Source: Thalassomonas actiniarum (lineage in GTDB: Bacteria; Pseudomonadota; Gammaproteobacteria; Enterobacterales; Alteromonadaceae). From it: a DNA stretch of 64,000 bases. Where the stretch lies: NCBI RefSeq assembly GCF_000948975.2, contig NZ_CP059735.1:434001-498000 (forward strand). The letters are read 5' to 3'. Under the pieces are notes generated by a model. That model ran no database searches. It was given only the letters and a program-made list of their open reading frames with translations, and was not told where the DNA came from. The translations under genes and the position numbers were made by a program. Positions 14,804-21,431 of the stretch are shown piece after piece (within the stretch, counting starts at the first letter, position 1; the number at the start of each line of letters is the position of its first letter).

Positions 14804-14870
14804 TTCTTTAATTGGCCAGGCATTTTGCTATATTGGCTGTATATCTTTGCTTATAGATGGACTTGTTTAC

Positions 14871-17630
14871 ATGAAAAATGCTAATAAATTATTGTTTGCC
14901 ACTAGTTTGATGCTAGCGGCATCTGCATGTACCCCACAAAAAACCGCCGAGGAACAAATAACAGAAGCAAAAGCCCATATCGCGCAACAGCAACTGTCCA
15001 CTGCGAGTATCACCTTAAAAAATGTTCTTAAGTCAACGCCTCAGTCTGCCGAAGGGCGCTTCCTCCTGTCGCAGGTTTATCTGAAAGTAGGTGAGCTTGA
15101 CAATGCCGAAAAAGAAATCAAAAAAGCCATTGAATACGGCTATGAAGCCGAAGCGGCTAATTTATTCCTGGCGGAGATACTGTTAGAAAAAAATGATAAC
15201 CAGGCAGTGATTGATCTGCTGGAAAAACAGCAGTTTTCTACAGAGTCTGCGCAAATTTTGAGCTTTATCTTTAAAGGTAAGGCGCATATCAATTTAAATC
15301 AGGTTGAGCTGGCCAAAGATGCCTTTGACACCGCCAATGACATTAATGTTGAGTCTTCCTATAGCCTTTACGGCTCTGCGATAGTGGCTTCCATGGATGA
15401 CAATTATCAGCTGGCGGCAGAATTACTGGATAAGGCGCTGGCGCAACAGGATGATTTGGCAGAAGGCTGGATACTAAAAGCCCGGGTGGCAGAGCAAAAT
15501 AAAGATTTTGCTACCGCTGTGAGTGCTTATGAAAAGTTCTTAGAGCTTAGGCCAAGGGCGCATAGCATCAAATTATTGATGGCGAATGATTATCTTCAGC
15601 TGGAAAATGATGAAGCCGCAGAAAAGCTGGTGGATGACTTACTGAAATTAAATGAGGCCCATCCGACGGCAAACTTGTTAAAGGCAAAAATTGCCAACAG
15701 CAGAAAAGATTATGAGCTGGTGAAGAAACATGCCGAAACCACTTTAAACAGTACCCCGGAAGATCCCCTGGCACTGTATTTATCCGGGATCAGCAATTAC
15801 TTTTTGAATAATTTCGAGCAGGCCTATACCGCGCTTTCTAAAATTGTCGATCGCCTGCCGAAAACCCATGAAGCCCATAAGCTCTACATGTTGTCTATGC
15901 TGAAGCTCGGTTATGTTGACCAGTTAAATGAGCATGTCGGAGAATATGAAGGTTTTGACGATAAAGATAGTAATCTGCTTTCGGTGATCGGCTCTAGCCT
16001 GGCGGTCAGCGGTCAAACCCAGGATGCGGAAACGATTTTTGAAAGGGCGCTTGAGGTAAAACCCGATGACGTCAATGCCAAGAAAAAGCTGGCGTTTGCC
16101 CGCCTGATGAACCGTGATCTGCAGGGGATCAGCGACCTGGAAGAAGTTAATGCCGTCAGTTCAGACGACAAAATGGTAAATCTGGTGCTGGCGTCTGCCT
16201 ACCTCTACCAAAATAAAATTGAAGAAGCGAATAATATCGTTGAAAAATGGCTGGCAAAAGAGCCTAAGGACATCGAAGCACTGTTATTAAAAGCACGGGT
16301 GTTAAGTGTTTCCGGCGAGCAGGATGCCAGCTTAACTGTGCTCAAACAGGCACAAGGTTATCAGCCTGACTCTACCAAGGTGTTATTAAAACTGGCAGAG
16401 CACCATTTAAGGGCTCAAGACTATCAAACGGCAGAAAGTTTGCTGAAGCAGATATTAGCCGCCGCTCCGGATACCAAGCCAGCTTTGATCATGCTGAATC
16501 TGGCCAGTCAAAAACAGGAAAAACAACAGCAATTCTTTGATTACCTGACGGATATTAATAGCAAGCATAAAGAGGTGATCTGGCCTAAGCTGATGCTGGC
16601 GCAAAAATTCATCAACGACAGGGAGGCGGAGCAGGCATTAAAATATCTGGCGCCGCTTGCCCAGGCGAAAGAATTGCCTAATGCCTATTATTCCATTGTG
16701 ATGAACGGCTACTATCTGTTAGCGGATAAAAGCAAACTGAATGATATTGCCAGTACCTGGCAAGCGGCCAAGCCTCAGGCGGTGGTTGCCTACCTTAAGC
16801 ATATTGAATTTCTGGAAAAGCTCGGCGATATTCAGTCGGCTTTGCTTCAGGCGCGAAAAGCCCAGAAAAAAATTACCAAAGAGAGTGATAATTTACGTTT
16901 AATGGTATTGGAAACGCATTACCTGCTGCGTTTAGGGCGAAACAATAAGGTTGCTCCTTTACTGACCAAGCTACAGGATAAATTGCCGGACAATGCTCTG
17001 GTGACTCAATTGGCGGGTCACCTGGCATTTAATAAACAGCAATACGACGAAGCCATCAAGCATCTTGAGCAGTCTTTTGCTAAAGATAGTAACGTCAGAA
17101 CAGCCCTGCTGCTGGCAAGTGCCTACCGCAGGACTGACAATGAGGCCAAAGCCGTTGCCTTACTGGAGCAGGCACCTGAAAAAGTAAATCAAAATGCTGC
17201 CGTACAAAGTTTATTATCTGAAATGTATACCAGAACAGATACTGCCAAAGCGATAGATTCTTATTTAAAGCAGATCAAAGCCTCACCTAAAAATGTTGTC
17301 GCCTTGAATAACCTGGCCTGGCTGTTAACTGAGCAGAAAAAATATGAGCAAGCCATTAGTTATGCCAGAAAAGCGCATGAGTTGATGCCAGATAACCCGC
17401 AAATCCTGGACACCTTAGGAGTTGCTTTACTGAAGAACATTAAGCAGGGTGAGGCACTGGAAATATTGAAGAAAGCTTATTCGCTTTCTAAAGAAGCCAG
17501 TATCAAAGTGCATTACGCCCAGGCACTTGCCGCTAATGGCCAGAAAAGCGAAGCGAAACAAGTGGTCGATGGACTGACAGAGCAGGAAAAATCAGAGCTG
17601 AAAGATGAGCTAGAGCAGCTGATTTTGTAA
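14871..17630 (+). CDS. prsT: PEP-CTERM system TPR-repeat lipoprotein PrsT
   Basis: A 919-residue TPR protein. I choose the ATG at 14871 because it starts a lipoprotein signal (basic MKNANK, hydrophobic core, then ASAC before TPQK); an upstream TTG at 14847 would only add eight residues. The rest is tandem helix pairs with TPR consensus (for example AEGRFLLSQVYLKVGELDNA and VALNNLAWLLTEQKKYEQA), which matches the PrsT family found in exosortase A loci. Its expected place is the outer membrane periplasmic face, as a scaffold for polymer export or assembly. It is transcribed alone, away from the glycosyltransferase cluster, has a structured leader, and ends at a strong terminator. Confidence 0.92.
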   Translation: MKNANKLLFATSLMLAASACTPQKTAEEQITEAKAHIAQQQLSTASITLKNVLKSTPQSAEGRFLLSQVYLKVGELDNAEKEIKKAIEYGYEAEAANLFLAEILLEKNDNQAVIDLLEKQQFSTESAQILSFIFKGKAHINLNQVELAKDAFDTANDINVESSYSLYGSAIVASMDDNYQLAAELLDKALAQQDDLAEGWILKARVAEQNKDFATAVSAYEKFLELRPRAHSIKLLMANDYLQLENDEAAEKLVDDLLKLNEAHPTANLLKAKIANSRKDYELVKKHAETTLNSTPEDPLALYLSGISNYFLNNFEQAYTALSKIVDRLPKTHEAHKLYMLSMLKLGYVDQLNEHVGEYEGFDDKDSNLLSVIGSSLAVSGQTQDAETIFERALEVKPDDVNAKKKLAFARLMNRDLQGISDLEEVNAVSSDDKMVNLVLASAYLYQNKIEEANNIVEKWLAKEPKDIEALLLKARVLSVSGEQDASLTVLKQAQGYQPDSTKVLLKLAEHHLRAQDYQTAESLLKQILAAAPDTKPALIMLNLASQKQEKQQQFFDYLTDINSKHKEVIWPKLMLAQKFINDREAEQALKYLAPLAQAKELPNAYYSIVMNGYYLLADKSKLNDIASTWQAAKPQAVVAYLKHIEFLEKLGDIQSALLQARKAQKKITKESDNLRLMVLETHYLLRLGRNNKVAPLLTKLQDKLPDNALVTQLAGHLAFNKQQYDEAIKHLEQSFAKDSNVRTALLLASAYRRTDNEAKAVALLEQAPEKVNQNAAVQSLLSEMYTRTDTAKAIDSYLKQIKASPKNVVALNNLAWLLTEQKKYEQAISYARKAHELMPDNPQILDTLGVALLKNIKQGEALEILKKAYSLSKEASIKVHYAQALAANGQKSEAKQVVDGLTEQEKSELKDELEQLIL

Positions 17631-18277: not shown

Positions 18278-19132
18278 TTACTTCTTGGCTTTTCTCTTAG
18301 AAAAACCTAATCCTAATAAGCCAAGGCCAAATAAGGCAATCATTGAAGGCTCAGGAACTTCTGTTAAACGGGCAAAAGTATAAACCGTGGTAGAGGTTTC
18401 TTCTTCAGTCCAAACGCGATCCTGGTTGATAAGCGTGCTACCGTCGGCATCAAAAGAAGTGAAGATAGTTAATGCGTAGTGCTTGCCGTCGATGTAAAAA
18501 GGTACGGCAAATGGCATAACGTCCGGTAATGGATCCGGGTTATTGATTGAATAGTCAAAGTAGTCATCACAACCTGTGACAAATTCGTGGCTCTCGCCGC
18601 CGTCGATGCCGTCTTGATCTACCGGAGAACACTCAGTCGGGTCAGTCTTGTTATAAGTTTCGGTGAATTCGATATCAAAATCACTGGTTGCGGTTGAGGT
18701 GAAGTTATCAATAACGAAAGAGTTACCGAAGTCTGCAGCGATACCGCCTGAGTGATCACTTGAAAAATCAATAGAGCCGGCAATATCAGCTTGCTTTAAC
18801 CAGTTAAAACTAGCGCTGATGCGGAAGTTGTTGTGGGTCAAGGCAGAAATCATATAGTTGGTATCAAGGGCATCAATATCTACAGAGAAGCCTTCCAGAA
18901 TTAAAGAGCTGTATGCATCGTTACCGCCCCAGCGAACACCGTCATGGATCACAGTACCGTCGTTAGTCTGGTCGGCATGTGCACTACCGTCAAGGTTGGT
19001 GAACTCACCGGCATCTTTATAGACAAAGCCACCGGTAGAAGTTGCTGTCATAAAAGTTGCGTTAGCGCTGAAAGAAAATGCACTAGCAATCGCTAACGCG
19101 GTTAAATTTTTAACCCATCCAGTATTTTTCAT
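18278..19132 (-). CDS. THxN-type PEP-CTERM sorting-domain protein (paralogue 1)
   Basis: A 284-residue secreted protein. It has an N-terminal signal peptide (NLTALAIASAFSFSANA) and a C-terminal exosortase tail made of EVPEPS, a hydrophobic helix (MIALFGLGLLGLGF) and a basic end (SKRKAKK). The central ALTHNNFRIS carries the THxN motif of a named PEP-CTERM family, and two Cys residues (in TECSP and TGCDDYF) are shared with the paralogue. It should be exported by Sec, then cut and attached or released by XrtA at 1853-3355. AGGG precedes the ATG. The promoter is sigma-54-like (19213-19228) with three phased dyads upstream. The biochemical role of the mature protein is unknown; in other bacteria PEP-CTERM proteins promote flocculation or matrix formation. 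Confidence 0.93.
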   Translation of the reverse strand: MKNTGWVKNLTALAIASAFSFSANATFMTATSTGGFVYKDAGEFTNLDGSAHADQTNDGTVIHDGVRWGGNDAYSSLILEGFSVDIDALDTNYMISALTHNNFRISASFNWLKQADIAGSIDFSSDHSGGIAADFGNSFVIDNFTSTATSDFDIEFTETYNKTDPTECSPVDQDGIDGGESHEFVTGCDDYFDYSINNPDPLPDVMPFAVPFYIDGKHYALTIFTSFDADGSTLINQDRVWTEEETSTTVYTFARLTEVPEPSMIALFGLGLLGLGFSKRKAKK

Positions 19133-19212: not shown

Positions 19213-19228
19213 AGCACTTGTCGTGCCA
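19213..19228 (-). promoter_or_regulatory. Sigma-54 (-24/-12) promoter of PEP-CTERM gene 1
   Basis: The minus strand reads TGGCAC-GACAA-GTGCT, against a consensus of TGGCAC-N5-TTGCW. The invariant GG and GC are exactly 10 bases apart and the -24 half is perfect. Predicted transcription start is about 19202, giving a leader of about 70 nt. RpoN dependence of PEP-CTERM genes is established in Zoogloea; here it is inferred. Confidence 0.82.
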
Positions 19229-19302
19229 GGTTTTTTAATTCTTTTATAAACAAATACTTGTGTGTTGTTTTGTCCCGTAAATCTCGTGTGGCTGAAATTT
19301 GA

Positions 19303-19365
19303 TGTAAAGAAATTTGACATGGATGTGTAAACCAATTTGACGTATATGTGTAAAGAAAATTGACA
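19303..19365 (-). promoter_or_regulatory. Three phased TGTCAA-N5-TTTACA dyads (activator-site array)
   Basis: On the plus strand the copies start at 19303, 19326 and 19349: TGTAAA-GAAAT-TTGACA, TGTAAA-CCAAT-TTGACG and TGTAAA-GAAAA-TTGACA. Each is 17 bp and an imperfect palindrome (TGTMAA-N5-TTKACA), and starts are spaced exactly 23 bp, close to two helical turns, so they would lie on one face of the DNA. They are 75 bp upstream of the -24 element, a typical distance for an enhancer-binding activator. The likely activator is a PrsR-type regulator encoded elsewhere (inference). Confidence 0.78.
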
Positions 19366-19493
19366 TGATTTTAAGCTGTTGAGGTTAGCCTGAAAGGGAC
19401 GAGTAATATCATGCTTTTTGTTGAGTTGATGTGCTGTTATGAATTTTATTTTAGGGGAGAATTTAGCTGAGGAGGTTTTGGCTGTTGTAAAAT

Positions 19494-19523
19494 GTAGAAC
19501 CTCTGTAATAACAGAGGTTCTAC
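19494..19523 (-). terminator. Hairpin terminator of PEP-CTERM gene 2
   Basis: GTAGAACCTCTG and CAGAGGTTCTAC form a perfect 12-bp stem around TAATAA, about 30 bp after the stop of the 19553-20407 gene. The minus strand then reads ATTTTAC, a short T-rich tail, so termination is likely though not textbook. Confidence 0.8.
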
Positions 19524-19552
19524 GTGACGTAAACTAGCTTATGTGAATAGCC

Positions 19553-20407
19553 TTACTGCTCCGACTTGCGTTTAGTGAGACTAAAACCTAATAAACCTAA
19601 AGCGAGTATCGCCAGGGTGGATGGTTCCGGAATTTCACTTAAGCGGGCAAAGGTATAAAGGGTGGTTGACTTCTCTTCTTCTGTCCAGATCCGTCCGGGA
19701 GGTAATACCGTACTGCCATCCACATCAAAAGAACTGAATATGGTTAAAGCATAATGGCTGCCGTCAATATAAAAGGGAATAGCGAACGGCAGGGTATCAG
19801 GGAGCGGGGCCGGGTTGTCGATTGAAAAGTCGAAGTAGTCATCACAGTTTGTGACAAAAGTGTGAGTGGCGCCACCGGCAACACCGTCTTCATCTACCGG
19901 TTCGCAACCTGCGACAGTTGAGGTGTTAAAGGTTTCGGTGAAGCCGATATCAAAGTCACTCATGGCATTGGCAGTGAAGGCATCGGCTACCGTTGAGTTA
20001 CCAAAGCCTGCTGCAATACCGCCGGTATTAGTGCTGGTGAAAGCGATCATACCCAAAATATCGGCATTGGTGAGCCAGGGAAAGGCGGCACTGATGCGGA
20101 AGTTATTATGGGTTAACGCTGAAAGCATATAATTAGTATCAAGGGCATCAATATCCGGAGCAAAGTCTTCCAGCACCAGTGAACTGTATGCACCGTCACC
20201 GCCCCAGCGAACCCCAGCATGTTTTACCGTTCCATCATTGGTTTGATCCGCATGGAGGGTACCGTCAAGGTTAATAAATTCGCCGGCATCCTTCATAACA
20301 AAGCCGCCGTTGGATGTTGCCGTCATGAAAGTTGCGTTAGCGCCAAAAGAAAGTGCACTCGTAAGTGCTATCGCAGTCATGTTTTTCATCAATCCGATAT
20401 TTTTCAT
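19553..20407 (-). CDS. THxN-type PEP-CTERM sorting-domain protein (paralogue 2)
   Basis: A 284-residue paralogue of the 18278-19132 product, same length and clearly alignable throughout (shared FMTATS, DAGEF, DQTNDGTV, GVRWGG, LDTNYM, ALTHNNFRIS, CDDYFD, FYIDG, ALTIF). It has a signal peptide (AIALTSALSFGANA) and the sorting tail EIPEPS, a hydrophobic helix (TLAILALGLLGFSL) and the basic TKRKSEQ. The two genes are tandem, each with its own promoter and terminator, so they arose by duplication but are separately expressed. AAGGAAAGG precedes the ATG. This copy has only one upstream dyad, against three for paralogue 1, suggesting different expression strength. Most differences lie in the middle of the mature domain. 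Confidence 0.93.
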   Translation of the reverse strand: MKNIGLMKNMTAIALTSALSFGANATFMTATSNGGFVMKDAGEFINLDGTLHADQTNDGTVKHAGVRWGGDGAYSSLVLEDFAPDIDALDTNYMLSALTHNNFRISAAFPWLTNADILGMIAFTSTNTGGIAAGFGNSTVADAFTANAMSDFDIGFTETFNTSTVAGCEPVDEDGVAGGATHTFVTNCDDYFDFSIDNPAPLPDTLPFAIPFYIDGSHYALTIFSSFDVDGSTVLPPGRIWTEEEKSTTLYTFARLSEIPEPSTLAILALGLLGFSLTKRKSEQ

Positions 20408-20476
20408 TGCCTTTCCTTTATTTGTTGAATTTTACCAAACCAGAAATTGATTTAGCCCACGTGTGGTTAAAAAATG

Positions 20477-20492
20477 AGCATAAGACATGCCA
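20477..20492 (-). promoter_or_regulatory. Sigma-54 (-24/-12) promoter of PEP-CTERM gene 2
   Basis: The minus strand reads TGGCAT-GTCTT-ATGCT, with GG and GC exactly 10 bases apart; only the sixth -24 base and the first -12 base depart from TGGCAC-N5-TTGCT. Predicted start is about 20466, giving a leader of about 59 nt to the ATG at 20407. Confidence 0.8.
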
Positions 20493-20556
20493 TCAAATTA
20501 AAGTCAATAGAAAACAAAGGATTGGCGAAAAGTGTAATCTTTTGGCTGAAAGCTTA

Positions 20557-20573
20557 TGTAAAATATGTTGACA
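20557..20573 (-). promoter_or_regulatory. Single TGTCAA-N5-TTTACA dyad upstream of PEP-CTERM gene 2
   Basis: The plus strand reads TGTAAA-ATATG-TTGACA, identical in both conserved halves to copies 1 and 3 of the array before paralogue 1. It lies 65 bp upstream of the -24 element and directly abuts the stop codon of the thiF-like gene, so a bound activator would sit at the 3' edge of that gene. A decayed TGTAAT-like half-site occurs about 24 bp away at 20533. Confidence 0.72.
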
Positions 20574-21431
20574 TCAGGCGTCCACGACACGTTTGGCGAT
20601 ATGAAACATGATGCGTGGTATCAGCCCGGAGTTGCCAAAAGGACGCCAGGTTTTTACCAGTTTATTACGGTAGGCATCAAAATGTAGCCCATGGGGGGCG
20701 GCTAATATTTCTCCCCGGTTAAGCAGTATTTTCAAAGCATAAGTTTCGGCTATTCCTGCACATAGGTTTACCGCCATCGGGGTTGAGGGGCCGCGTTTTT
20801 CTTTGAAATTAACCCGGCTGTCATCTACCAGGTATTGGCGTTGCAGCATGGCGGGTGAAAGACCTATCAGGAACTGAATAAGCTGGTCGTGCTCTGATTT
20901 TCCCTCAAATTTGAAATATTGCTCATAAGTCATTTGTCCCGGCATAAAGCAGAGTAAGGCACAACCCATGCCTAAGGGTGCTGCCGTGATCACCGGGATC
21001 TGCTTCTCATAGCATTTTTGAAAAACGGTTTTACGGGCTTCGAGGGCAAAAAAGTCCAAAGCATCTACATATAAATCAACACCTTCGAGAAACTCATCAA
21101 CATTATGTGCGAAAATTCCCTCAGGAAAAGATTTTATGTTTGCTTCCGGGTTGATGTCTTTTGCCAACTCTTCCATCACATCGACTTTTTGTCTGCCGAG
21201 TGTCGACATAAAGGCCCCGGATTGGCGATTGAAATTGTGTACTTCAAAGTCGTCAAAATCTGAGATGTTAAAATTTTCGACACCCAGCCTTGCCAGGGTG
21301 AGTAAGTGGATACCACCAACGCCGCCGGCACCAGCTATGGCCACTCGCCGGGTTCTCAATGTTTCCTGTTCGGCTTCGGTAACCCAGCCTATGTTTCTTG
21401 AAAAAGCTTTTTTGTAATCAAACATGCTCAA
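20574..21431 (-). CDS. Stand-alone ThiF/E1-like adenylyltransferase
   Basis: A 285-residue member of the ThiF/MoeB/E1 superfamily. Visible are the ATP-binding GAGGVGGIHLL (about residues 35-45), the metal-site acid in ISDFDDFEVHNFNRQ with the NxNRQ arginine finger, and the DALDFFALEARK segment. Such enzymes adenylate the C-terminal carboxylate of a sulfur carrier, ubiquitin-like protein or peptide. No CxxC zinc pair and no ThiS/MoaD-like partner is visible here. It is transcribed alone between the PEP-CTERM genes and the UDP-sugar genes, so a role tied to the exosortase system is possible but unproven. Substrate unknown. Confidence 0.86.
   Translation of the reverse strand: MSMFDYKKAFSRNIGWVTEAEQETLRTRRVAIAGAGGVGGIHLLTLARLGVENFNISDFDDFEVHNFNRQSGAFMSTLGRQKVDVMEELAKDINPEANIKSFPEGIFAHNVDEFLEGVDLYVDALDFFALEARKTVFQKCYEKQIPVITAAPLGMGCALLCFMPGQMTYEQYFKFEGKSEHDQLIQFLIGLSPAMLQRQYLVDDSRVNFKEKRGPSTPMAVNLCAGIAETYALKILLNRGEILAAPHGLHFDAYRNKLVKTWRPFGNSGLIPRIMFHIAKRVVDA

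Follow-up and report, generated by a model that had tools for sequence, protein, structure and literature searches.

PEP-CTERM boxes with whole-turn spacers and a fixed IHF-like site at two paralogous PEP-CTERM genes of Thalassomonas actiniarum

The DNA analysed here (the window, 64,000 nucleotides of the Thalassomonas actiniarum genome) contains two genes for PEP-CTERM proteins, gene A and gene B, each preceded by a sigma-54 promoter (motif 2) and an upstream 17-bp activator site (motif 1). This pair of elements recurs in the host genome and in those of other bacteria, the distance between them takes discrete values about one helical turn apart, an IHF-like site stands at a fixed point before the promoter, the elements of gene A are conserved within the genus, and the presence of the pair largely coincides with that of the response regulator gene prsR. 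From these observations we consider it probable that PEP-CTERM boxes drive genes A and B, with PrsR on phased sites activating the sigma-54 polymerase over a bend made by IHF. The features of the window that bear on this proposal are as follows.

18278..19132, minus strand: gene A, THxN-family PEP-CTERM protein, 284 aa (NF038125, 100.1 bits, cut-off 85; TIGR02595, 26.0, cut-off 16; PF07589)
19213..19228, minus strand: sigma-54 -24/-12 promoter of gene A (motif 2), TGGCACGACAAGTGCT, GG-N10-GC
19248..19260, minus strand: IHF-like site of gene A, YAANNNNTTGATW, 8/9, ending 19 nt before TGG
19303..19319, minus strand: motif 1 of gene A, copy 1 (proximal), TGTCAAATTTCTTTACA, 74-nt spacer
19326..19342, minus strand: motif 1 of gene A, copy 2, CGTCAAATTGGTTTACA, 23 bp above copy 1, kept in four species
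19349..19365, minus strand: motif 1 of gene A, copy 3, TGTCAATTTTCTTTACA, 23 bp above copy 2, kept in four species
19553..20407, minus strand: gene B, THxN-family PEP-CTERM protein, paralogue of gene A, 284 aa (NF038125, 85.5 bits, cut-off 85)
20477..20492, minus strand: sigma-54 promoter of gene B (motif 2), TGGCATGTCTTATGCT, GG-N10-GC
20512..20524, minus strand: IHF-like site of gene B, 8/9, ending 19 nt before TGG
20557..20573, minus strand: motif 1 of gene B, TGTCAACATATTTTACA, 64-nt spacer (63-64 in four species)
14847..17630, plus strand: prsT, XrtA/PEP-CTERM system TPR protein (TIGR02917, 523.9 bits, cut-off 312.2); context, outside the promoters

For both paralogues, a sequence-only reading of the window had described a sigma-54 promoter with GG-N10-GC spacing and, 65-75 bp further up, a 17-bp TGTCAA-N5-TTTACA site taken to be of the PrsR type. 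The coordinates were confirmed: both promoters match the sigma-54 consensus at 10 of 11 positions (TGGCAY / TTGCW context), and the two-element pattern was found twice in the window and not once in 100 dinucleotide shuffles. The same reading described the site as a dyad and held that the elements recur in the same order and spacing at two separate genes. The order stands, but equal spacing had to be dropped, as the spacers measure 74 and 64 nt and so differ by 10 nt, or about one helical turn. The 17-bp site is likewise real, but its symmetry is imperfect, with TGTC distal and TTTACA proximal, and a directional site replaced the fully symmetric dyad. Both genes do have both elements, but they are not two independent cases: the paralogous proteins share 196 of 284 residues (69%), and the promoters may retain, at most, faint homology outside the motifs (score of the alignment 8.5; 200 shuffles gave a mean of 3.4 and a maximum of 9.0). 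Recurrence at genes A and B was consequently given up as independent evidence. Motif 1 of gene B abuts the 3' end, at 20574, of a same-strand ThiF/E1-like gene (20574-21431).

The box in the host genome and the spacing of its elements

The host genome (two contigs, 7,494,638 bases) contains 68 PEP-CTERM domains over cut-off. The pattern TGTMAA-N5-TTKACA of the earlier reading has 9 genome places, compared with 3 for the reversed pattern. Six of the 9 are found ahead of PEP-CTERM genes, or 3 of 6 when the three in the window are set aside. With a less strict pattern, TTTACA followed at 40-70 nt by TGGCAY-N6-TGCW, there are 5 places against 1 for the control, and 3 of the 5 precede PEP-CTERM genes. 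For TGTC-N7-TTTACA, 42 places stand against 19 for the reversed control, 22 of them before PEP-CTERM genes. Of these 42 places, 38 were examined, and at 16 of them a sigma-54 site (at least 8 of 11 positions) follows at a distance of 28-95 nt. Fourteen of the 16 stand before PEP-CTERM genes and two (L246 and L256) do not, while the remaining four of the 42 are already among the host's 30 complete promoters. These pattern counts are free of position weight matrix training, although the design of the patterns drew on the sites in the window and on others from the composite scan. With the matrix, motif 1 exceeds 12 bits in 33 of the 68 PEP-CTERM upstream regions in the forward direction and in none when reversed, and exceeds 9 bits at 48 forward sites in 35 regions versus 5 reversed sites, counts that are partly circular as the matrix was trained on the same regions it scanned. 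The resulting consensus has TGTC(A/G)R at its distal end, a T-rich middle, and TTTACA at its proximal end. A composite score of at least 19 was reached in 25 of the 68 upstream regions (29.2 kb), in 2 of 68 on the opposite strand, and 4 times in 800 strand-kb of background.

By the criteria used, 30 promoters are complete and 38 of the 68 PEP-CTERM genes lack a complete box; these are perhaps served by another activator. Fifteen of the 38 have a sigma-54-like site (at least 9) without a paired motif 1. A gene for a subtilisin-like (S8-type by eye) secreted protease lies downstream of a motif 1 in the host (L255, C1:5056948), and in relatives two S8-type (by eye) protease genes (L334 and L338) lie behind a full box with a 62-nt spacer.

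The spacer between motif 1 and motif 2 is quantised near 51, 62, 73, and 84 nt. In the host's 30 complete promoters it measures 40-42 nt (2 promoters), 50-52 (3), 61-64 (19), 73-74 (5), or 81 (1). A scan of GTDB covered at least 120 stretches, of which the first 80 loci gave 81 matches and the other 40, which were held out, gave 41. In the first sample, searched over spacers of 44-74 nt, the 81 matches among those listed fall at 49-53 (18), 61-66 (46), and 73-74 nt (15), with single exceptions at 56 and 68 nt that have no PEP-CTERM tail by a simple rule; 2 of the 81 listed matches are thus in the troughs, where a smooth spread would put 56%, the trough limits having been set after the first peaks appeared. 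The 41 held-out matches among those listed are distributed over 50-52 (6), 56 (1), 60 (1), 61-65 (25), and 73-74 nt (8), again with 2 in the troughs, and the match with the 60-nt spacer has no PEP-CTERM tail. By the same simple rule, under which several failures are contigs ending shortly past the box, a tail was found within 1.8 kb downstream at 50 of the 81 listed matches of the first sample (upstream 4, other strand 4) and at 21 of the 41 listed held-out ones. One held-out promoter among the matches listed (L203), with a 56-nt spacer between the peaks, a PEP-CTERM-type tail, and an IHF-like site of 8/9 in both orientations, is a true exception to the phasing.

The same peaks were found within the family. 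The 150 matches among those listed from a search over 38-68 nt, which come from five genera and include orthologues, have spacers of 49-53 (46), 60-65 (102), 42 (1), and 45 nt (1), and 1 of the 150 listed is in the troughs versus 58 if uniform; 60 nt counts here as part of a peak and in both GTDB samples as part of a trough. A search over 66-96 nt gave 62 matches, spread over 49 genomes out of 147 and 27 genera out of 52, with spacers of 72-74 (35) and 82-86 nt (16) and the other 11 at 68, 70, 71, 75, 78, 80, 81, 87, and 96 nt, and with 2 of the 62 in the troughs versus 32 expected. Among the family matches listed, the peak means are 51.0, 62.1, 72.9, and 83.7 nt, a step near 10.9 bp, and the best single period of the 212 pooled spacers is 11.1.

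In the study of Haft et al. 2006 (PMC1569441) the box was confined to Proteobacteria. Among the GTDB matches listed, the module is found in records named as Alpha-, Beta-, Gamma-, and delta-type proteobacteria. A metagenome-assembled record titled Nitrospira sp. (L145) has the box with a 61-nt spacer before a PEP-CTERM-type gene, possibly through assignment to a wrong bin.

The IHF-like site

Between activator site and promoter, both window genes match the consensus of an IHF site at 8 of 9 positions, the A of TTGAT being missing in both. Gene A has a second match in the forward orientation (8/9, 7 nt before TGG), which is found in this genome only. The rule applied to other promoters, suggested by the letters of the spacers themselves, asks for at least 7 of 9 positions of YAANNNNTTGATW ending 18-20 nt before TGG (reverse orientation) or of WATCAANNNNTTR ending 5-7 nt before it (forward orientation). 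By this rule the site is present in 24 of the host's 30 promoters (shuffled spacers: mean 2.1, maximum 7), in 53 of the 81 matches listed for the first GTDB sample (mean 4.7, maximum 13), and in 63 of 80 promoters of relatives (mean 8.3, maximum 15), the 80 being 40 with short and 40 with long spacers picked among the 150 matches listed. It is also present in 27 of the 41 held-out GTDB matches listed, which were unseen when the rule was set (mean 2.8, maximum 8). At the level of 7/9 it is absent from 28 of the 81 and 14 of the 41 listed GTDB promoters.

The control sites give lower counts. Among PEP-CTERM sigma-54 sites that lack a paired motif 1, the element accompanies 1 of 15; among background sigma-54-like sites it accompanies 13 of 150, and among those matched for AT content 6 of 33. 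When the windows of the rule were shifted by 4-11 nt, matches were found in 0-7 of the 81 listed GTDB promoters and in 0-4 of the host's 30; there are lesser bumps at single offsets, most prominently for forward matches that end 22 nt ahead of TGG (9 of the 81 GTDB matches listed). A conservation set of 17 related promoters from four species of the genus has the reverse site at an offset of 19 in 16 cases and of 18 in one. The four gene A orthologues keep it at 7-8/9 and the same offset, with the forward match reaching only 6 in the other three, and the four gene B orthologues also have 7-8/9 at the same offset.

The 13-bp IHF consensus is asymmetric, and it occurs in either orientation while its W base stays on a single pivot. 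The centre of the bend made by IHF lies near the W base, and an IHF site has an A-tract side. Since the W base occupies the same point in both orientations, one bend position would serve both. An A/T tract is present on the expected side of the IHF-like site, which is a weak sign because the promoter side is AT-rich anyway. The host genome has ihfA, over cut-off.

On the strength of this match we take the element to be a probable IHF binding site. It could instead be an AT-rich contact for the alpha subunits of the polymerase, or a site for HU or of intrinsic bending, as the promoters as a set are AT-rich in this region and about one third of the listed GTDB promoters fall below the consensus. 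We regard this alternative as unlikely, however, because neither spacer shuffles nor AT-matched sigma-54 sites reproduce the 13-bp consensus with its shared W pivot, and because the gene A orthologues keep AA-N5-TG-N-TT while neighbouring bases vary.

The orientation of the IHF-like site was also compared with the spacing. Among the matches listed for relatives, forward and reverse sites stand at 24:3 with short and 10:19 with long spacers (look-alikes removed, p 3e-5). A tie between orientation and spacing was not kept as a finding, as p is 0.21 outside the relatives (7:7, 15:30, and 2:11 in the first GTDB matches listed plus the host); the small held-out sample has, among its matches listed, 4:2 short, 4:9 middle, and 3:2 long. 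In one genus, a complete box with a 52-53 nt spacer and a forward IHF-like site (L268, L275, and L281; by their tails also L266, L270, L277, and L279) precedes genes whose products lack a PEP-CTERM tail and are twin-arginine-like at the N-terminus (three sequences); one product was scanned and had no Pfam match at E 0.1.

PrsR and the conservation of the two promoters

The host genome has PrsK, PrsR, and PrsT, and the box stands before its PEP-CTERM genes. A single gene exceeds the family cut-off for prsR; it lies beside prsK at C1:411046-412371, about 22 kb before the start of the window. Of 295 genomes of the family, 201 have the box together with prsR and 76 have neither, with the box alone in 8 and prsR alone in 10. 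They thus agree in 277 genomes, the 18 disagreements being judged by the prsR cut-off. On these comparisons PrsR is the best candidate for the protein that binds motif 1.

Motif 1 could also be bound by another sigma-54 activator, with prsR merely travelling along, both being parts of the exopolysaccharide/PEP-CTERM system. More than 20 further host proteins match the PrsR model in its sigma-54 activator part, no report of PrsR binding to motif 1 was found in the accessible PEP-CTERM box literature, and in Aquincola, according to the part of the report available, plasmid-borne prsK-prsR did not restore a mutant (PMC9850573). Nevertheless, the position of prsR as the sole gene over the family cut-off and its agreement with the box make another activator improbable. 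PrsR therefore remains our preferred activator.

Within the genus, gene A has three copies of motif 1 in all four species, at 74, 97, and 120 nt (74, 95, and 118 in one), that is, 21-23 bp apart; the spacer of gene B is 63-64 nt, and that of the other related promoters 62-63 nt. TGGCAC and TGCTT of the gene A promoter are invariant in the four species. At gene B, invariant columns number 35 of 46 in the elements and 104 of 135 outside, an overall conservation too high to discriminate, whereas at gene A they number 53 of 80 in the elements versus 62 of 163 outside. The idea that the elements shared by genes A and B are the mere residue of a recent tandem duplication draws on the identity of the two proteins and the possible faint homology of their promoters, but it is hardly credible given this contrast at gene A, the presence of the module across proteobacterial records among the GTDB matches listed, and its place before unlike PEP-CTERM proteins in the host genome, a genome-wide recurrence that refutes duplication as a full account.

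Tandem copies of motif 1 were not kept as a general feature. An extra forward copy (above 9 bits, within 150 nt) was found in 12 of the 81 promoters listed for the first GTDB sample, two of them at 21-22 nt, against a background of 6 reverse-strand sites. Five of the 81 listed (L128, L144, L164, L170, and L187) form a tight cluster among the 12, with the second forward motif 1 at 110-112 nt above the first.

Proposed mechanism and relation to known systems

In the mechanism that we propose, PrsK would control the response regulator PrsR, which would bind the directional 17-bp sites. IHF would bind at a constant position some 19-20 nt upstream of the -24 element and bend the DNA there, and the bend would hold PrsR against the sigma-54 polymerase, which PrsR would then activate, giving the predicted output. 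A short and rigid loop of this kind would accept whole turns only, with PrsR sites at about 51, 62, 73, or 84 nt; we propose that the sites are nearly always at whole-turn distances because the loop is too short to accommodate the wrong face of the helix. The three tandem sites of gene A would raise PrsR occupancy, and the two genes would differ by about one helical turn in the distance of the PrsR site.

The sequence-only reading had offered the combination of a sigma-54 promoter with a PrsR-type site as a new regulon definition for this lineage. The pairing is well supported, and PrsR is the best candidate, but neither the pairing nor the predicted role of PrsR is new, since both were already published as the PEP-CTERM box by Haft et al. 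2006 (PMC1569441), with Colwellia psychrerythraea among the genomes included. The reading's statement that PrsK/PrsR dependence is established in Zoogloea found no confirmation in the sources consulted. The available text of that study describes a 17-nt motif 1 ending in TTTACA and sometimes repeated, a sigma-54 motif 2, and a spacer with a mean of 62.8 nt (SD 10.6, range 32-92); the box precedes 99 of 167 proteobacterial PEP-CTERM genes, and PrsR is the predicted binder of motif 1 and activator. The promoters described here agree with it in their 17-nt motif 1 ending in TTTACA, in spacers of 74 and 64 nt that fall within 32-92, in the -24/-12 motif 2, and in their place before PEP-CTERM genes of a genome with PrsK, PrsR, and PrsT. 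Repetition of motif 1 is likewise known from that text, and the conserved triple copy at gene A is a new instance of it. In contrast to the published description, which summarises the spacer by its mean, SD, and range, the present one adds a fixed IHF-like site, whole-turn spacing, and the direction of motif 1; a word search of the text of PMC1569441 for IHF, phasing, inverted, and palindrom gave no hit.

Two other promoters are close to those of genes A and B. As described in the accessible part of the report, pepA of Aquincola tertiaricarbonis (PMC9850573) is RpoN1-dependent, with tested expression and a mapped start; among the sources consulted, loss of transcription without RpoN is shown for this gene only. 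It resembles the present promoters as a PEP-CTERM gene with TGGCAC/CTGCTT elements and a predicted upstream enhancer; unlike pepA, genes A and B are known from sequence alone, with the analysis of IHF-like site and spacing added. In Vibrio fluvialis hcp/tssD2 (PMC5963220), TAACTTATTGATT and the sigma-54 site are separated by 16 bp in all alleles but one. For Vibrio hcp promoters the same source, in the part available, reports IHF binding and mutation of the site, with VasH as the activator. The sigma-54 promoter, the type of IHF sequence, and its written orientation are the same here, whereas the candidate activator is PrsR and the IHF-like site goes together with motif 1 and whole-turn spacing. 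In the open PMC literature, no link of IHF or helical spacing to PEP-CTERM promoters was found, the mentions being reference entries, a reference title in PMC1569441, and one epsH remark; nor did that literature yield a description of the fixed IHF-like site or of the whole-turn spacing.

A wider reading, on which we are evenly divided, is that the PEP-CTERM box of Proteobacteria may be a rigid module of PrsR, IHF, and sigma-54 polymerase. IHF would be its fixed pivot, the activator site would evolve by whole turns, and gene families would shift among discrete states of 51, 62, 73, and 84 nt, as genes A and B may have done after their duplication, with the orientation of the IHF site partly setting the state. 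Predicted in 2006, the PEP-CTERM box has kept that standing since, and the IHF-like site and whole-turn spacing make it sharply testable. They also give a stricter pattern for regulon searches and a natural set of promoters for the study of short-range enhancer looping.
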